Origin: a virus
Strand: one strand, 5' to 3'
Length of the DNA: 25,019 nt
IMG/VR virus record: IMGVR_UViG_3300013372_002360
Location: 1 to 25,019 of that record
This document shows positions 58-11,125 of the stretch, piece by piece (the first letter of the stretch is position 1; the number at the start of each line of letters is the position of its first letter). The notes beneath the pieces are model-generated. The model was not told where the DNA came from. It ran no database searches and saw nothing but the letters and a program-made list of their open reading frames with translations. The position numbers were made by a program, and so were the translations under genes.

Positions 58-1341
58 TCTGCTGGCTCTGCTGCTACTATAGCAGTTGGAACTGTCACTA
101 CTGGTTCGGCTGGATCTTCAGCAGTAGTCACAAATTCTGGCACATCAAGTGCAGCAACCTTTGACTTTACTATACCAACAGGCGCAACAGGTGCTACAGG
201 GCCTACTGGCCCTTCTGGCCCTTCTGGAATAGTAGTCCAAGGCACCGCTCCTGTAGATACTACTGTTATTTGGGCAGACACCGCAACTACTGGTTCCGTT
301 GGACCACAAGGCCCTGCTGCAACTATTACGTTAGGAACAGTAACCACAGGATCAGTTGGGTCATCGGTATCTATTACCAATTCAGGAACAAGTGGAGCTG
401 CTGTATTTGACTTTTCTATACCAGTAGGGGCTACTGGAGCCACTGGTCCTACAGGTCCTACAGGTCCCACTGGCTCTGCTGCAACGATTACCGTAGGAAC
501 AGTAACAACAGGTGCAACCGGATCTTCAGCCTCTGTCACCAATGTTGGTTCATCAGGAGCTGCTGTATTTGACTTTTCGATACCAACAGGAGCTACAGGA
601 GCCACTGGCCCAACTGGCCCAACTGGCCCTACTGGCCCAGCAGGCTCACTAGGCTCAGCAACACTAGACGATCTTGCAGATACAATAATAACAAGCCCAG
701 CAACTGCTCAAATTTTAAGATATAACGGAACTAACTGGGTCAACTATGCCCCTACTCTTACTCTTGGTGGAAATTTTGAAACATCTGGGGCTAACTCACT
801 GACACTTACCACAACAGGCTCAACAAGCATAACTGTTCCAACTACAGGAACACTAGCAACTCTTGCCGGCACTGAAACTTTTACTAATAAAACTTTTACA
901 AGCCCAGTAACTAATAGTCCGACTTTAACTCTTTCAACATCATCTTCTACAACTGACGCTAGAATTTCTTGGGATTCCACTAATAAGAAACTGCAAGTTG
1001 GCAACGGAACAGTATCACTAGACTTTGCTTCTTCTAATGTTATTACAAATGCACAAGTAGCTAGCTATACATTAGTATTAAATGATAAGGATAAATTAGT
1101 AGAAGTCAGCAATGCGTCAGCAAATACATTAACAGTTCCATTAAACTCTTCTGTGCCTTTTCCTGTTGGAACGCAAATTACAATACTTCAAACAGGAACA
1201 GGTGCAACTACAATTACTGCAACTGGTGGCGTGACTATAAACGCTACTCCTGGCTTGATACTAAGAGCACAGTGGTCTTCTGTAACATTAATAAAAAGAG
1301 CTACTGACACTTGGGTTGCATTGGGAGATTTGAGAGCTTAG
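1..1341 (+). CDS. Collagen-like phage tail fibre / virion protein, C-terminal part (5' end outside window)
   Basis: The frame is open from base 1 to the TAG at 1339-1341 (446 codons visible). The start lies upstream of the window. The visible part opens with six Gly-Pro-Thr-type triplets, then three 45-residue units of the form AATI-VGTVTTG...[13 protein letters not shown] separated by more GPT/GPS triplets. A Thr/Ser-rich beta-type region follows, including '[15 protein letters not shown]', and then a C-terminal domain containing '[13 protein letters not shown]' and '[14 protein letters not shown]'. This arrangement is typical of trimeric fibre or appendage proteins of aquatic phages: collagen-like shaft, beta region, C-terminal tip. 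The protein would sit on the virion surface, perhaps in host recognition. Its stop codon overlaps the stop of the convergent oxygenase gene by 2 bases, with no terminator visible. The fibre identity is secure by composition; the exact place on the virion is not known. Confidence 0.88.
70..204 (+). repeat. Fibre repeat unit 1 (45 codons)
   Basis: First of three units of exactly 135 nt inside the fibre gene. It starts with Ala-Ala-Thr-Ile, contains VGTVTTG and FDFTIPTG, and ends in GATGATGP. A 37-codon linker follows, holding the sequence [17 protein letters not shown], a segment type frequent in phage fibres. Confidence 0.8.
316..450 (+). repeat. Fibre repeat unit 2 (45 codons)
   Basis: Second 135-nt unit, with VGTVTTG and FDFSIPVG and the same GATGATGP ending. 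Only nine codons of GPT triplets separate it from unit 3. Confidence 0.8.
478..612 (+). repeat. Fibre repeat unit 3 (45 codons)
   Basis: Third 135-nt unit, with VGTVTTG and FDFSIPTG and the GATGATGP ending, then further GPT triplets up to the end of the shaft near base 645. The equal unit length suggests expansion by in-frame duplication. Confidence 0.8.
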
Positions 1342-1880
1342 TCTTTCTTGATGCACCAAAAATTAGTAGAGCACCAACGGTATCCACTCTTTATTTCCTT
1401 GACTTGGTGTGGGAATTCATCTTTTGCGGGAAAACAAACAAACATTCCAGGTTCTGGCTTAATCAATAAGTCTTGATTAGGAAAATAAATTTCTCCACCC
1501 TCATAGTCATCATTATAATAGAGTACTGAGCTAAGGTCTCTAGTTGGGTGTCCTGCGCCAGTTTTTAATCCAACACTTTGATTTTGAGCAGATCCGTGAT
1601 CTAGATGAACCGGCATTGAATCACCAGTTTTCATTTCTACTATGCTACTTACTCCTTCATCAAAAACTTTGCAATCAAAAGAAGTTTCCATTATTTCTTT
1701 CAAAGCATCGTAATACTTACTGAGAAGCTCAGGTAAGGTAGGGCTACCATTTCCAGCATACACTCCAAATGGAGAATATCCAGATTCATCAATCGTAACT
1801 GGAGTATCTTTTAGGTACGATATAATTTGTTGTAAATCTTGTTCATCTATAATATTTTTAATAACATGAATCTTATCCAT
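1338..1880 (-). CDS. 2OG-Fe(II) oxygenase (prolyl-hydroxylase-like), 180 aa
   Basis: Predicted 2-oxoglutarate and Fe(II)-dependent dioxygenase of the prolyl-4-hydroxylase/2OG-FeII_Oxy superfamily. Visible ligands: H92 and D94 in 'MPVHLDHG', the distal His H158 in 'EFPHQV' and the 2OG-binding Arg R168 in 'SGYRWC'. Between them is the strand signature '[14 protein letters not shown]' followed by 'LLIKPEPG'. The family couples oxidative decarboxylation of 2OG to hydroxylation of a substrate; the substrate here is unknown. At 180 aa it is a compact, single-domain enzyme. It is second in a two-gene minus-strand operon, 1 nt downstream of its paralog, and ends tail-to-tail with the fibre gene. There is no strong Shine-Dalgarno, so translation is probably coupled to the gene before it. 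Confidence 0.88.
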
Positions 1881-1881
1881 T

Positions 1882-2502
1882 TTATTTTAATTCTGTAATA
1901 GTATAAAAAGATGGAGTTGTATATCTTTCTCCAGAAATAATTGGCTTTACTCCATGAAGGTAGTCTATGTCTCCAGGGTGAGCAACTCCTAATCCTGGCT
2001 GCGGTTTAATTACAAGATCATATTCTGGGTAATATAATTCTCCACCTTCAAAGTCATCATTGTAATAAATTAATGAATTTATATCGTAAGTGGGAAAAGG
2101 ATTAGGTCTTCCATCATTCATTTGTTTATCTGCATGAGGTCTTTGCTCCATGCCAGGACGCCACTTGATGATCACTGGTGGTCTTGTTGATAGCTTAACT
2201 TTAAAAGAATCTTCTAAACATTTTTTCATTTTTTGAATATATTTTTCTACAATATTATATATTTCTATATTTATTCTTTGAAGTATATCCCAACTACATT
2301 GTCTATCCACCCAGTAAGAAGCGTCATATGTACAAGTACCATCGTCTGCATACTGATTTTGACCCGCATCCATCCATTCTGAAATGGTAGGTAAAAACTT
2401 TTGTATAGTTTTAAGGTCTTCTAATTCAATAAAATTATTATACACCTTTATGTTTTTAACATCCTTGCCAAAATGTCCTGGCCTTATTAATGACTCATCC
2501 AT
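1882..2502 (-). CDS. 2OG-Fe(II) oxygenase (prolyl-hydroxylase-like), 206 aa
   Basis: First gene of the minus-strand pair. Iron ligands are H123 and D125 in 'QRPHADKQ' and H183 in 'DYLHGVK'; R193 in 'SGERYTT' is the expected 2OG-carboxylate ligand. The block 'YYNDDFEGGELYYP' plus 'LVIKPQPG' closely matches the neighbour at 1338-1880, so the two look like a tandem duplication with diverged N-terminal halves. The ATG is preceded by GGAG (2510-2513 on the minus strand) with a 7-nt spacer. About 38 nt of leader separates it from a TATAAT on the minus strand inside the palindrome at 2542-2556. The substrate cannot be inferred from sequence. Confidence 0.88.
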   Translation of the reverse strand: MDESLIRPGHFGKDVKNIKVYNNFIELEDLKTIQKFLPTISEWMDAGQNQYADDGTCTYDASYWVDRQCSWDILQRINIEIYNIVEKYIQKMKKCLEDSFKVKLSTRPPVIIKWRPGMEQRPHADKQMNDGRPNPFPTYDINSLIYYNDDFEGGELYYPEYDLVIKPQPGLGVAHPGDIDYLHGVKPIISGERYTTPSFYTITELK

Positions 2503-2541
2503 CTTGCGGCTCCAATCTAGTTTGATTTGCCCGAAACTACG

Positions 2542-2556
2542 TGCTATATTATAGCA
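2542..2556. promoter_or_regulatory. Palindromic, candidate bidirectional extended -10 promoter
   Basis: TGCTATATTATAGCA is a perfect inverted repeat with one central base. The minus strand reads TGCTATAAT (an extended -10, TGn-TATAAT, hexamer at 2548-2553) and the plus strand reads TGCTATATT (hexamer at 2545-2550). Predicted starts near 2541 (minus) and 2557 (plus) would feed the oxygenase pair on the left and the oxygenase/DUF6065 pair on the right. Symmetric shared -10 elements giving divergent transcription are known in bacteria and archaea. It could also be an operator half-site pair. No -35 TTGACA is visible on either side. Confidence 0.6.
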
Positions 2557-2580: not shown

Positions 2581-3264
2581 ATGGAAATTTATAACGTAGA
2601 AGATCCTAAGTTTGGAATCATCCTGTATAGGGACGTAATGTCAGATGACCTAAATATTATTGGTAGATTAGAAGAAACCCTAAAAGATAGTAAGCATGAA
2701 CATTTTAAGTGGAATACAGCTACAGTTGGATACAATACGCCAATGCCAGACTACAGAGATTGTGTTGACCTAAAAGTCGGTCCAGCTCATTGGCCTCATC
2801 TGCCTGAAGATTTAAAAGAAATTAAAAATGTTTATGATGATACAGACGCTATATTAAAAAAATGTCTAGCAGATTATGAATCTAGATATAATTTTAAAAT
2901 GGAATTTATGGAATCTATCAACTTTGTTAGATATGAAGTTGGGCAACACTTTTCTGTTCATACCGATCATGGCTTTTCTTACACGTGCACGCTATCTTCT
3001 ATAGCTTACTTAAATGACGACTATGAAGGTGGAGAACTATGGTTTCCTTATATCAACTTAAAGTTTAAGCCTAAAAAAGGAGATGTACTTTTCTTTCCTT
3101 CAACATACATTTTTGCTCACGGATCATTGCCCGTAACTGAAGGTGTTAAGTATTCAGCAGTTACAATGTTTGATTATAAAGACAACAATAAGGAATATCA
3201 TCAAACAGCCAACTCTGGAAATGAAACTAAAGAAGAATCTGGAGTTACCCTTAAAAAACTTTAA
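2581..3264 (+). CDS. 2OG-Fe(II) oxygenase with Lys at the 2OG-anchor position, 227 aa
   Basis: Predicted 2OG/Fe(II) dioxygenase: H127 and D129 in 'FSVHTDHG', distal H180 in 'IFAHGSLP', and '[14 protein letters not shown]' with 'KFKPKKGD' between them. At the position where paralogs have Arg ('GYRW', 'GERY') this protein has K190 ('EGVKYSAV'). Lys is used for the 2OG C5 carboxylate in collagen-type prolyl-4-hydroxylases, so activity is plausible. I chose ATG 2581 (AAGGA just upstream) rather than the in-frame TTG at 2527, because the promoter palindrome lies between them. The C-terminal 30 residues are polar and probably disordered. The stop is followed after 1 nt by the next gene, so the two are likely coupled. 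Confidence 0.86.
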   Translation: MEIYNVEDPKFGIILYRDVMSDDLNIIGRLEETLKDSKHEHFKWNTATVGYNTPMPDYRDCVDLKVGPAHWPHLPEDLKEIKNVYDDTDAILKKCLADYESRYNFKMEFMESINFVRYEVGQHFSVHTDHGFSYTCTLSSIAYLNDDYEGGELWFPYINLKFKPKKGDVLFFPSTYIFAHGSLPVTEGVKYSAVTMFDYKDNNKEYHQTANSGNETKEESGVTLKKL

Positions 3265-3265
3265 G

Positions 3266-3970
3266 ATGACTAGAATAACCCTAACTAAGACTCATCAAAA
3301 TCCGCCAGACATAAAGCAGTCTAGACTCAAAAGAGACTGGATGGACCAAACCTACAAGAAGCATGCCTATAAATGTCTCCCAATGACAGCAGCCAATGTT
3401 AACGGTTGGGAGTTAGTTCTACAGCAGGATGTAGTAGTTCAGTGGGATGGCGGGAATACTACGCCTAGAGTTTTAGAGGGTGAGTTCTTGAATGGAAGAC
3501 CAGTGGTAATACCTTCTATAATAGGAATAATTTCTTTTGCTACAGGATGGGCTATCAATACTGAAGATGGTTATGATACATGGATAACAGGTTCTCCTAA
3601 TTATTTTTTAGATGGAGCTGTTCCATTGTCCGCCACTATACCAAGCTCTTGGTGGCCTGATGAATTTAACATGAACTGGAAGATAACCAAGATTGGTGAA
3701 CCAGTTAGATTTGAAGCAGGAATGCCGTTCATGTTCTTTAATATTTATAAAAATGATCTCCTAGAAAATGCAGAAGTAGTAGTTGAAAACCTTTGGGATA
3801 AACCAGAATTAATGGCCAAACGTCAATCATACGGAGATGCAAAAATGAAGAAACTTCATGAGCAGCCTTGGACTTGGATGAACGGAATCAGAACTGGCTT
3901 GGATGAAAATGGAAATGCAATAGGGCCAAAGCATGATGGGCTATTAAGCCTGGTTGATCCAACCAAATGA
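3266..3970 (+). CDS. DUF6065-like protein of unknown function, 234 aa
   Basis: No enzymatic motif is recognised. The sequence resembles the DUF6065 family as I remember it: an N-terminal 'KRDWMDQT...AYKCLPMTAANVNGWE', a central 'ATGWAIN' and 'WITGSPNYFLDGAVPLSA', a 'WWPDEFNMNWK' block and a C-terminal 'VRFEAGMPFMFF'. Trp-rich conserved blocks suggest a compact beta fold. The ATG at 3266 lies 1 nt after the previous stop; an upstream in-frame ATG at 3143 is rejected because it would overlap the oxygenase by 120 bases. Coupling to an oxygenase gene suggests a role in the same modification process, as partner, substrate or tailoring enzyme; this is inference. The family assignment needs a profile search. 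Confidence 0.7.
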   Translation: MTRITLTKTHQNPPDIKQSRLKRDWMDQTYKKHAYKCLPMTAANVNGWELVLQQDVVVQWDGGNTTPRVLEGEFLNGRPVVIPSIIGIISFATGWAINTEDGYDTWITGSPNYFLDGAVPLSATIPSSWWPDEFNMNWKITKIGEPVRFEAGMPFMFFNIYKNDLLENAEVVVENLWDKPELMAKRQSYGDAKMKKLHEQPWTWMNGIRTGLDENGNAIGPKHDGLLSLVDPTK

Positions 3971-4305: not shown

Positions 4306-4527
4306 ATGAAATTTACTTTATCTTCTGAAGAAAAAAAACAAGCATACCAGTTGGTAAAAGCAGAACTTGAAAAAACTTTAATCTTGAGGCTATCGGTATT
4401 AGGTATTGATCCAGAAGAATTTGACGAAGACAGCTTTACTCCTGCTGAAAATAGCACAGCGCAAAATGATATTTATGGTATAATTTGTAAGATAAAAGAT
4501 ATTGACATCAAGATATCTTCCCTATAA
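4306..4527 (+). CDS. Small hypothetical protein, 73 aa, paralog of the preceding gene
   Basis: Unknown function. Helix (about 5-33), the shared 'LGIDPEEFDEDSFTPAENS' loop (about 32-50) and a C-terminal amphipathic helix. It starts 3 nt after the previous stop without a strong Shine-Dalgarno, so it is probably translationally coupled. The shared LGI-(N/D)-P-x-x-FD-x-x-SF core is the only conserved mark and would be the query for a sensitive search. Confidence 0.72.
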   Translation: MKFTLSSEEKKQAYQLVKAELEKTLILRLSVLGIDPEEFDEDSFTPAENSTAQNDIYGIICKIKDIDIKISSL

Positions 4528-4538
4528 CTGGAGAACAA

Positions 4539-5711
4539 ATGCAGTATAAAGCAATCGAAGAATATAGTCCCTCCAACTACGCCTGTTATGCAGTAACGTC
4601 TATTAAAGAAAACTTTACTTTAAATACAGTTCATCCTCGTGGGCTACAAGAGTATTTAAAGTACGACATATATGACATTGGCGACAAAACTTTAATAGCT
4701 TTTACAAAGATAAATGTCTATAAAACAGATTTTGTATATAGAATTATTTCGCAAAATTATACAGAAGATATAAATTACGAAAATTATGAATTTATTGAAG
4801 ACGTATTAAATAACTCCTACAGTAAGAATACAAATGCATTCTTTATAATGCAGTCTGTATCAGATTATAAAGAAGCTCTAGGAGGAGCTCCTTCTCCAGT
4901 GGACGATGCTAGAAGATGCGACCTTGAAGATTATGCTGCCGTCGGATTCCTCGACACAAATAAAGAAGGTGCAGCAGATGTTTGCGACAGAAGTCAACTT
5001 GGTGGAGATAATGTAAAAGGATGGACGGTTTTCTTATCTTCAATGTCCAATATCTATATAGTAAAAGTGGAATATTCTAGCGAACTTAATGATAGAAATT
5101 ATAAAGACTGGCCTATTCGTGTCAATTACTGCAGAACTTTCGCTCATGCTGTAAAGATGGCATATGAATGGAATTTGCTAAATCAAGATCCATGGAACTC
5201 TGCCGACAATATTGCAGTTAGATGTAATAAAGCGTTTACGGACTGGTCAATACCACAAGACGCATTAGATGAACTAGCAGAATCTCAGCCTGACACTGTC
5301 TTGTCTCTATATCTAAGTGGTGACGAAGACCCAAGAAAGTCTATAGAAGAAAATTCAATTGTTCCAGAAAAATTTAAGAAATGGTTTATGTCAAAGCTAA
5401 GATACAGAACATTAGGTTCTTTAGCTCAAAACTATCCAGAACATTTAAACATTCCAGGCTCTATGATAGAAAAAGAAAAAACATTTTTTGAAACTGAAAT
5501 ATATAAATTTTGTATTGAAAATGAATTAGATATACTTTCAACTACTTCTGTAGATATTCTGGACAAAGCATACTGTAGCGGTCCTTCTTATAAAGAAAAA
5601 AATAATACTATTACTGATATTATAGGCAAAAATCCCTACTTGCAAGATAGAGAATTGATTAAGCAGTATCAAGAAATTAAAAAAACACCACACCCAGCCT
5701 ATGAGGGCTAG
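4539..5711 (+). CDS. Hypothetical protein, 390 aa, no recognised family
   Basis: I do not recognise this protein. It is soluble, without signal peptide or membrane segment. The N-terminal half is aromatic-rich (many Tyr/Asn) and beta-like; a middle part carries 'GWTVFLSSMSNIYIVKVEY' and 'YCRTFAHAVKMAYEWNLLN'; the C-terminal third is helical and charged with conserved-looking 'SMIEKEKTFFETEIYKFC'. Six cysteines are scattered (positions 16, 128, 149 and others) with no metal-binding spacing. GGAG 7 nt upstream of the ATG supports the start. Third gene of the operon with the two small paralogs. Its position among modification genes suggests an accessory role; a structural role is also possible. 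Confidence 0.72.
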   Translation: MQYKAIEEYSPSNYACYAVTSIKENFTLNTVHPRGLQEYLKYDIYDIGDKTLIAFTKINVYKTDFVYRIISQNYTEDINYENYEFIEDVLNNSYSKNTNAFFIMQSVSDYKEALGGAPSPVDDARRCDLEDYAAVGFLDTNKEGAADVCDRSQLGGDNVKGWTVFLSSMSNIYIVKVEYSSELNDRNYKDWPIRVNYCRTFAHAVKMAYEWNLLNQDPWNSADNIAVRCNKAFTDWSIPQDALDELAESQPDTVLSLYLSGDEDPRKSIEENSIVPEKFKKWFMSKLRYRTLGSLAQNYPEHLNIPGSMIEKEKTFFETEIYKFCIENELDILSTTSVDILDKAYCSGPSYKEKNNTITDIIGKNPYLQDRELIKQYQEIKKTPHPAYEG

Positions 5712-6429: not shown

Positions 6430-6780
6430 ATGAATAAGACTCTTAATATAGCAAACATTTTTGGAAAATGGAATATTGATATTAATACTCCATTTGGAAA
6501 AGAAAAATACACTTTAAACATAAATACTTTTGGACCACTCAAGGGTAGTGGCTTCTACCTTGACTACGATGGATTAGCAGGTTCAATTGAGCACGAAAAA
6601 GGATCTATTGCATTCACAAATGCAAAGTTTGAAGGTGTAACATTTTACCTTTCTGTAGAAACAGATTTTCCAATAAAGTCTACTATATCAATAACAGCAG
6701 ATTTAATAGAGGATAATAAGATATCAGGAATGCTAGAGATAGATCAGTATCTTGTGACTTCATTTATTGGAATTAAGTAA
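6430..6780 (+). CDS. Small beta-rich protein of unknown function, 116 aa
   Basis: A series of short beta strands with Gly turns: 'GKWNIDINTPFGKEKYTLNI', then 'GSGFYLDYDGLAGSIEHEKGSIAF', 'FEGVTFYLSVETDFP', 'STISITADLIEDNKISGMLEI' and 'TSFIGIK'. The order (W-containing first strand, a P-x-G-x-x-x turn, a 'D-K-I-S-G' strand near the end and a final 'F-x-G') resembles a small beta-barrel family common in actinobacterial and proteobacterial genomes with no known function. It opens the six-gene operon from a leaderless promoter; its TAA overlaps the next ATG (TAATG). Lipocalin-like ligand binding is possible but unproven. Confidence 0.72.
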   Translation: MNKTLNIANIFGKWNIDINTPFGKEKYTLNINTFGPLKGSGFYLDYDGLAGSIEHEKGSIAFTNAKFEGVTFYLSVETDFPIKSTISITADLIEDNKISGMLEIDQYLVTSFIGIK

Positions 6781-7394
6781 TGTCTTTTTATGATTTCTCA
6801 GCTTCTTCAATTCACGGTAGAGAGAACTACCTTTCTGAGTTTAAGGGTAAGATAACCCTAGTGGTAAATATAGCTAGCAAATATGGCTATGAACCACAGT
6901 GTTCAAAATTGTGGTCTTACGCAAGAACTTGTAGGCAACTTGGCCAATTGCAAGAGGTGCATGAAGAATTTAGCGATAGAGGTTTTTCTGTACTAGCATT
7001 TCCATGTAACCAGTTTGGGTCGATGGACCCTGGAACTAATGAAGAAATAGCAGATTTCATTAAGCAGAATTACTCCTTTGTTACTTTTCCTATTTTTGAA
7101 AAAGTTGAAGTCAATGGAAAAGGTGAGCATGAAGCTTTCGCATTCCTTAAGGGTTATGAAAAAAGAGCTTATTCAGATTTTGCAGCAGATGGTAGCGAAG
7201 AAGCTCAAAGAGGACAGAACTTAGCAGGCGAAGCAATGGCAAGAATCTCTCACAACTATGAAAAGTTTTTAGTTAGTAGAGATGGAGTTATGATATCTAG
7301 ATTTAACTGGCAAGATATGCCACTAGATGAAGTGCCAAGAATACAAGGTGCTGGATGGACAATCAGACAAGCCATAGATGAGGTGCTGGGATAA
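6780..7394 (+). CDS. Degenerate glutathione-peroxidase-like protein, 204 aa
   Basis: Thioredoxin-fold protein of the glutathione peroxidase family: 'LVVNIASKYGYEPQ' (28-40) aligns with the family's NVASKCG(F/Y)TPQ, 'LAFPCNQFG' (72-80) is the second signature, and 'HNYEKFLVSRDG' (158-169) aligns with WNFxKFLVxxxG. The peroxidatic Cys/Sec is Tyr (Y35) and the catalytic Trp is His (H158), while the Gln of FPCNQF and the Asn of HNY remain. A stretch of about 14 residues with two Cys ('SYARTCRQLGQLQ', near 46-58) is inserted after the active-site loop. Classic peroxidase chemistry is therefore unlikely unless C41, C51 or C76 takes over. It overlaps both neighbours by 1 base (TAATG) and precedes four oxygenases, which suggests a linked role such as redox partner or chaperone. 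Confidence 0.85.
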   Translation: MSFYDFSASSIHGRENYLSEFKGKITLVVNIASKYGYEPQCSKLWSYARTCRQLGQLQEVHEEFSDRGFSVLAFPCNQFGSMDPGTNEEIADFIKQNYSFVTFPIFEKVEVNGKGEHEAFAFLKGYEKRAYSDFAADGSEEAQRGQNLAGEAMARISHNYEKFLVSRDGVMISRFNWQDMPLDEVPRIQGAGWTIRQAIDEVLG

Positions 7395-9432: not shown

Positions 9433-10310
9433 TTTTTAATAAAGTCGAACCAAAACACCTAGGTGGTGGAGTAGTAGTGTTTGAAGGTTGCCTAGATTTA
9501 GATTGGCAGAATCTACTTAACAGATCAAATGATTTAATAGAAGAAGAGTGGAACGAAATGTACTCTTCTGGCACAGACCCTGAAACTGGTCAAGAAATAT
9601 ACGTAAATAAAAGTGGATACTTTTTTAATAAAGAAAGTATTGACCTCATGCCAAAGAGAGCTAGCGCAATCCATTATAAGGATAATGAAGACTTGCGTGA
9701 CATTTTTTCTTTTATAGAGTTAGCAAAAGACAAATGCTTACTGCAGTACTTTGAACTATTTCCATTAGCTTACAAATGCGTATGGTGGAAAGTTAAGGGT
9801 CACATATTGCAGTATCCAAAAGATGTTTATCTTGGTTCGCATTCAGATATCAGTGGCGATTATATATATGGAATCTTAGAACCTCAAGATCAATTGGCGT
9901 TAAGAAATGTTGTTACAAGTCTAGTTTACTTTAATGATTCGGTTGATAATAGAGAAGATTTAGACGGGCAAAATTACATTGGTGGACATCACTACTTTAA
10001 CTATCTGGACATAGATTACTCTCCTAAGAAGGGTGATATATTATTCTTTCCATCCAACTATATGGCAGCCCATGAGGTCAAGCCGGTAAAAGAAGGTTTT
10101 AGATACAGCTATCTTGGATGGTATAGTCAAGGAACTCCCAATCCTGCAGTTCACGAATATGTAGCAGATCCTTTAAAAGAACCTGAATTGTCGAAAAAGG
10201 CAACAAACGTTTACATGACCACGCTTAGAGAAGATCTAAAAAAACATCTATTAGAATCTGGGTACAAAGAAGATTCTCCTCAGTTTTATATTACAAAATC
10301 AAATTATTAA
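9429..10310 (+). CDS. 2OG-Fe(II) oxygenase, tandem paralog 3, 293 aa
   Basis: N-terminal domain with 'GVVVFEG' and a looser version of the conserved 'NKSGYFF' segment; 'WWKVKGHILQYP'; iron ligands H138 and D140 ('GSHSDISGDY') and H215 ('AAHEVKPV'); R225 ('EGFRYSYL'); strand 'LVYFNDSVD' and 'NYIGGHHYF', 'PKKGDILFFPSNY'. The loop after HxD differs from the 'DND' of paralogs 1 and 2, a candidate specificity difference. ATG 9429 overlaps the previous stop (ATGA). A C-terminal helical tail ends the protein. Expressed from the same operon as the genes on both sides. Confidence 0.87.
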   Translation: MIFNKVEPKHLGGGVVVFEGCLDLDWQNLLNRSNDLIEEEWNEMYSSGTDPETGQEIYVNKSGYFFNKESIDLMPKRASAIHYKDNEDLRDIFSFIELAKDKCLLQYFELFPLAYKCVWWKVKGHILQYPKDVYLGSHSDISGDYIYGILEPQDQLALRNVVTSLVYFNDSVDNREDLDGQNYIGGHHYFNYLDIDYSPKKGDILFFPSNYMAAHEVKPVKEGFRYSYLGWYSQGTPNPAVHEYVADPLKEPELSKKATNVYMTTLREDLKKHLLESGYKEDSPQFYITKSNY

Positions 10311-10318
10311 GGAACTTT

Positions 10319-11125
10319 ATGATATCAAAACATATGGGAATGGGCGTAGTTATTTGCGAAAACGTAATCAATATAGATCAAGATTTTCTTTTTGAATATA
10401 TGGATTGGATTCGCAAGAACCAAGAAGATACATTTACTTATCATGAAGAAAACGGAGTAAAGTATGCTACTAACAAAACTGGTTTTAGATTTAGCTTAGA
10501 AGATATACAGCAAGCACCTCAAAGATTCTTGGACACAAAGGGTAGTCAGCTAAACATAGAAGTACCTAAAAAATATATTGATTTCATAGATTCACTAGAA
10601 GACGCATTATATGATGCCCTTGTAGAATATTGTTGCTATTTCCCCGATGCTGGGACAACTTCTTGGTGGAGACCAAATGGGCACATTGCAGGATATGAGA
10701 ATGGACAAAGAATAGGTCAGCACTGTGACGATCAAGTTCCTTATGAGTGGGGAAAGCCAACTGGCAATCAGGTGTCAATGCATAACAGTTCTAGCATAAA
10801 CTTGTATTTAAATGATTGCGTTGATTCAGAGCAAGAGTTGAATGGTTACAACTATGTTGGTGGAGAGCTTCACTTTCCTAATATTTCAACAACCTGGAAG
10901 CCAAAAATGGGATCAGTTGCAATATATCCCTCATCTTATATAGGAAGACACGAAGTCCTTCCAGTCTCAGCAGGTCAGAGATACGCCTACCTAAGCATTG
11001 CTTGCTACGGCACTTCTTTTGATCGAGAAGAGATAGTTGGTGAGGACAATCCTTACAAAAAATGGATGCCAAACCTAATAGAAGAAGCAGCCAAAAGAGC
11101 TTCATCTAAAGAATATACTCTTTAG
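10319..11125 (+). CDS. 2OG-Fe(II) oxygenase, tandem paralog 4, 268 aa
   Basis: Shortest of the four. 'GVVICEN' and 'TNKTGFRFSLEDI' mark the shared N-terminal domain; 'WWRPNGHIAGYENGQ' leads into H135 and D137 ('GQHCDDQVPY'); 'LYLNDCVD', 'NYVGGELHFP', H211 ('GRHEVLPV') and R221 ('AGQRYAYL') complete the core. In place of the usual KxGD turn it has 'KPKMGSVAIYPSSY', a small deviation. AAGGAA about 5 nt before the ATG gives it its own ribosome binding site after an 8-nt gap. It is the last gene of the oxygenase operon and is followed by a new promoter. Confidence 0.87.
   Translation: MISKHMGMGVVICENVINIDQDFLFEYMDWIRKNQEDTFTYHEENGVKYATNKTGFRFSLEDIQQAPQRFLDTKGSQLNIEVPKKYIDFIDSLEDALYDALVEYCCYFPDAGTTSWWRPNGHIAGYENGQRIGQHCDDQVPYEWGKPTGNQVSMHNSSSINLYLNDCVDSEQELNGYNYVGGELHFPNISTTWKPKMGSVAIYPSSYIGRHEVLPVSAGQRYAYLSIACYGTSFDREEIVGEDNPYKKWMPNLIEEAAKRASSKEYTL

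Follow-up and report, generated by a model that had tools for sequence, protein, structure and literature searches.

The window analysed here, the entire 25,019-base stretch of IMG/VR virus record IMGVR_UViG_3300013372_002360 (positions 1 to 25,019), derives from an uncultured phage and encodes a tail sheath gene and numerous genes of the 2OG-Fe(II) oxygenase family (seven of nine neighbouring proteins tested scored above the Pfam cut-off). The oxygenase genes are densely clustered between positions 1338 and 11125, along with a glutathione peroxidase-like gene (6780–7394) and a DUF6065 gene. Two members of the family diverge from a 78-bp gap and are referred to below as A and B. Gene A (1882–2502, minus strand) encodes a 206-aa 2OG-Fe(II) oxygenase family protein, whose match to PF13640 falls just under the Pfam cut-off (E = 1.3e-4) and which also matches phrog_61 (E = 1.1e-16); adjoining it downstream is a second 2OG-Fe(II) oxygenase gene of 180 aa (1338–1880, minus strand; PF13640, E = 1e-10). 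Gene B (2581–3264, plus strand; 227 aa, PF13640, E = 9e-13) is a 2OG-Fe(II) oxygenase gene adjoined downstream by the DUF6065 gene (3266–3970, plus strand; PF19541, E = 5.5e-45). Gene A starts with the ATG at 2502, 7 nt after a Shine-Dalgarno-like GGAG on the minus strand (2510–2513, read 2513–2510), and gene B with the ATG at 2581, preceded by a Shine-Dalgarno-like AAGGA on the plus strand (2572–2576), in agreement with the initial annotation, according to which genes and Shine-Dalgarno sites are well placed on both sides. Since relatives carrying the A/B pair were found on contigs that reach 268 kb in length, the source is probably a jumbo phage.

Inside the gap lies TGCTATATTATAGCA (2542–2556), a perfect palindrome with 7-bp arms centred on T2549 and kept in relatives, which reads on both strands as an extended -10, as had been claimed from the initial inspection. 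The plus-strand element, TGC TATATT (2542–2550, hexamer 2545–2550), faces gene B and is conserved with drifting spacing; the minus-strand element, TGC TATAAT (2548–2556, hexamer 2553–2548), faces gene A and is a perfect extended -10 of full consensus. Each strand therefore carries the TGn and TATAAT-like hexamer that define an extended -10, for which a -35 is optional, and the two -10-like sequences share one symmetric region. The opposed hexamers overlap by 3 bases, with the central base pair occupying position -8 on each strand. A -35-like TTGATT (2522–2527, plus strand), overlooked in the initial annotation, is located 17 bp upstream of the plus hexamer, and the minus side is without a comparable -35; the two sides are thus not equivalent. 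With a -10-to-start distance of 7 nt, the predicted transcript starts, each within 1–2 bases, would be at 2557 for B (plus strand) and 2541 for A (minus strand), a separation of 16 bp in the window and of 11–16 bp across relatives.

Judged by chance expectation within the window, TGCTATATTATAGCA is weak evidence. The window contains three perfect palindromes whose arms are 7 bp or longer, which makes its symmetry unremarkable by count, and we rejected the idea that the palindrome is significant by itself. TGNTATAAT occurs four times in the window (2.1 expected) and TGNTATANT 14 times (6.9 expected). The significance of the element comes from its conservation.

Relatives of A and B were gathered by protein searches and identical regions were removed; a further alignment-based search gave mostly the same contigs, and no DNA-level relatives were found in the annotated phage collection. 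The first two protein searches yielded 46 distinct A/B gaps, and in 42 of them no more than one of the 12 fixed bases of TGnTATAxTATAnCA is changed (0.35% of mononucleotide shuffles). With later searches included, 77 distinct regions upstream of B were available, and 76 after one miscall (L263) was dropped. At least 7 of the 8 positions of TGnTATAAT were matched on both strands at one place in 62 of these 76 regions, which are related sequences and not 76 independent events, compared with 9 of 1520 dinucleotide shuffles (0.6%) scored with the same spacing freedom; the consensus used for scoring is of sigma70 type and may not match the promoter preferences of the host. The right half is kept in the group across 60–99% protein identity, with L411 and L412 reaching just 6/8 on the minus strand. 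TTGATT or TTGACT recurs at the plus side in relatives: a -35 score of at least 4/6 was found on the B side of 31/76 regions (about 15% by chance) and on the A side of 6/76, so that -35 enrichment is limited to the B side. The strict motif is present once in every one of the group's large relatives that has it, and genome-wide use of the palindrome in the group was rejected on this ground.

The gene arrangement around the element also varies. Where an extra oxygenase gene has been added on the A side (L186, L249, L267), the element is flanked by B and by the gene that has become the first on that side. In L455, L443 and L446, what looked like tandem neighbours of B were spurious short ORFs, and divergent minus-strand genes are present. 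In one lineage (L148, L149, L346), A and B are separated by an inserted plus-strand gene. In L148 this gene encodes 349 aa (2869–3918, plus strand), and its region and A each have an extended -10 of their own, the two being divergent, non-overlapping and located near 2794 and 2808.

Perfect dyad symmetry in the window, the frequent occurrence of operators in divergent gaps and the unmistakable -10 of the left half, with its -35 at 17 bp, are all compatible with the palindrome being an operator that binds a dimeric regulator and overlaps a one-way B promoter, with A transcribed from elsewhere. A dimeric operator would be expected to hold its half-sites at a fixed spacing and to keep its symmetry regardless of whether the genes diverge; among the relatives the spacing varies, and in the one lineage with a broken divergent arrangement the symmetry is lost. 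Half spacing differs from that of the window in TGATATGATTATACCA (+1), TGGTATAGTAGTATATCA (+3), TGGTATAATAATCATATCA (+4) and TGATATGATATAGTGTACCA (+5), for which the predicted starts would be 15, 13, 12 and 11 bp apart, respectively, instead of 16. Slides of 1–5 bp would turn operator half-sites around the helix, yet each half is still -10-like: both -10s are retained at 6–8 of 8 positions, nearly all of them near-complete on both strands. On a quick protein tree of B, in which the long rows L378 and L546 are placed less surely and with the spacing offsets of L353, L411 and L412 assigned by hand, the shifts arose no fewer than four times, making five changes when the lineage with the inserted gene is counted. 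In the lineage with the inserted gene, where A is separated from B, B retains TTGACA-17-TGGTAAAAT and the right (minus) half has decayed to CCTATT. An operator half-site would moreover have to match TGnTATAAT by coincidence, and the motif is single-copy in relatives. We regard an operator over a one-way promoter as improbable; a regulator with flexible spacing, or one acting atop the promoter pair, may be involved.

The right half might instead be a chance companion of a plus promoter that alone is functional, as it is at numerous one-way promoters in other phages. The exact 15-mer is indeed common in unrelated phages, mostly at tandem genes (60/101 distinct sites), and in a phage group of ~345 kb the right half accompanies 6/52 distinct one-way sites of the TTGAC-17-TGnTATAAT family, of which the 15-mer is a minor variant. 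Because the same 15-mer is found at so many one-way promoters, the palindrome alone is no proof of bidirectionality, and the notion that it implies bidirectionality anywhere was rejected. Against a chance origin at the A/B locus, the right half is conserved over the full range of protein identity and through the spacing changes, and it is absent from most one-way promoters of the same phages: 43/47 distinct extended -10s upstream of tandem genes are without an opposing element of at least 7/8, and four have one. A plus promoter with an accidental right half is accordingly very unlikely. Selection for a hairpin, terminator or cruciform has a negligible probability. The arms can pair (-4.4 kcal/mol on the plus strand, z about -2), but the minus-strand z is just -0.95, the stem carries a mismatch in most relatives, and positions 3 and 13, which extended -10 promoters leave free, do not covary, being complementary in 7/21 distinct elements when 7.6 were expected; on this evidence neither a hairpin nor a cruciform is what was selected. 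Rfam returned no match for the element and the terminator scan listed no site at it. As read from the sequences, the case for bidirectionality is carried by the comparative record of the A/B locus and not by the palindromic -10 alone.

Several one-way sites met in these comparisons have features of their own. At 4476–4484 of the window (plus strand), and counted among the 47 sites above, there is a conserved one-way extended -10, TGGTATAAT, without the right half; it lies inside the end of a 73-aa ORF (4306–4527), upstream of the gene at 4539, and is kept with its flanks in L123, L139, L141, L154, L160, L161 and L163. The phages L008, L010 and L020 (IMG/VR records G008, G014 and G021; about 345–349 kb) each carry 22–28 near-identical one-way promoters on one strand of the record, of the form TTGAC-17-TGnTATAAT and with a recurring spacer like CAATAATTCCCAATT, which together make up a repeated promoter family. 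At several one-way promoters of L008, L050, L559, L582 and others an ATG is found ~6 nt past the -10 hexamer, an arrangement that would give leaderless mRNAs. On a 119-kb phage contig (L039), four exact copies of the palindrome occur within 1.3 kb (9685–10951), each with GTCAA ~17 bp to its right, which suggests a repeated minus-strand promoter.

Taken together, the unpaired free bases, the drift in spacing, the decay in the split lineage and the one-way controls back the initial claim of two opposed extended -10s as opposed to a pure operator, and the comparative evidence supports two such elements serving two oxygenase transcription units over a dimer operator. We estimate a probability of roughly 0.85 that the element is a bidirectional sigma70-type promoter composed of two complete opposed extended -10s (TGnTATAxT). 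A host-type sigma70 polymerase would bind this bidirectional promoter in either orientation. Landing rightward, it would use TTGATT and TGCTATATT and transcribe B and the following genes; landing leftward, it would use the perfect TGCTATAAT without a -35 and transcribe A and the second oxygenase gene. The sites overlap, and the two landings should therefore be mutually exclusive. Transcription itself, the start positions, the use of host polymerase and the mutual exclusion are what we infer from this arrangement. Among 13 related records, which may be partial, neither a phage Rpb1-type polymerase nor a sigma factor was found above the cut-off; the search for a single-subunit polymerase was run without a positive control. 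The initial annotation also had one element coordinating the two oxygenase units. Opposed -10s facing both units have comparative support, whereas "coordinate" is uncertain: the element cannot take up two polymerases at once, and the coupling could therefore be competitive.

The register of the two elements may have a function as well. As the central base pair is at -8 on both strands, at most one strand can have the consensus A there. This shared base, read on the B strand, was G or T in 21/21 distinct elements and never A, so that B never obtains a consensus hexamer. We tentatively propose that the distinct register, with extended -10s fused at a shared -8, has been selected across diverse phages and that the shared base pair sets the strand bias, although this is doubtful enough to stand well below the bidirectional reading itself. 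The shared base pair and the B-side -35 might then act as a balance between the two directions.

The founding paper on bidirectional promoters is reportedly that of Warman et al. in 2021. Bidirectional promoters are pairs of divergent starts separated by 7–25 bp, most often by 18 bp and frequently by 10 or 23 bp as well; in the commonest geometry the starts are 18 bp apart and -7T and -11A are reciprocally paired (Middlemiss et al., 2023, PMC10268837; Warman et al., 2026, PMC12825309). Their definition comes from the mapping of start sites in bacterial and archaeal genomes, and whether such promoters are eliminated by evolution is discussed in that literature (PMC10268837; PMC12825309). The A/B element resembles the published promoters with a shared -10 in its symmetric -10 on both strands, its flanking divergent genes, its overlapping polymerase sites and a predicted distance inside the 7–25 bp range. 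The expectation that starts ~16 bp apart are typical of the class thus holds for the published range but not for the optimum, the predicted distance being 16 bp and not 18 (or 10, or 23). Unlike in the 18-bp geometry, whose -7/-11 pairing is typical of the class and optional, -8 coincides with -8 here. The A/B element further differs in having TG extensions on both strands, in being phage-borne and conserved at one locus, and in being known from its sequence, whereas the published cases rest on mapped starts. Like ordinary extended -10 sigma70-type promoters, it has TGn immediately preceding a TATAAT-like hexamer, here on each strand; unlike them, it has two such elements fused in opposite orientation. 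On this comparison, the putative A/B promoter joins the known bidirectional promoters; its register is unusual, and its evolutionary support is clearer than is usual.

In phage lambda, the divergent promoters PR and PRM are under a regulator-made switch. Plasmid pLS20 is reported to have overlapping or back-to-back divergent promoters likewise under a regulator-made switch (PMC4207663). Those systems share with the A/B locus divergent units run from one short region and possible polymerase interference; there the switch is made by regulators, whereas neither a regulator gene nor an array of operators was identified at the A/B locus. No phage case of a bidirectional promoter was found in the literature searched, the coverage of which was partial. 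At the A/B locus, the sequence record indicates that both directions have been kept over deep divergence, that the halves slide independently and that one is dropped when its gene is displaced. The locus would thereby serve as clean comparative evidence that bidirectionality can be a selected function, and as a short, readily cloned element with which to test how a shared base pair balances two directions.
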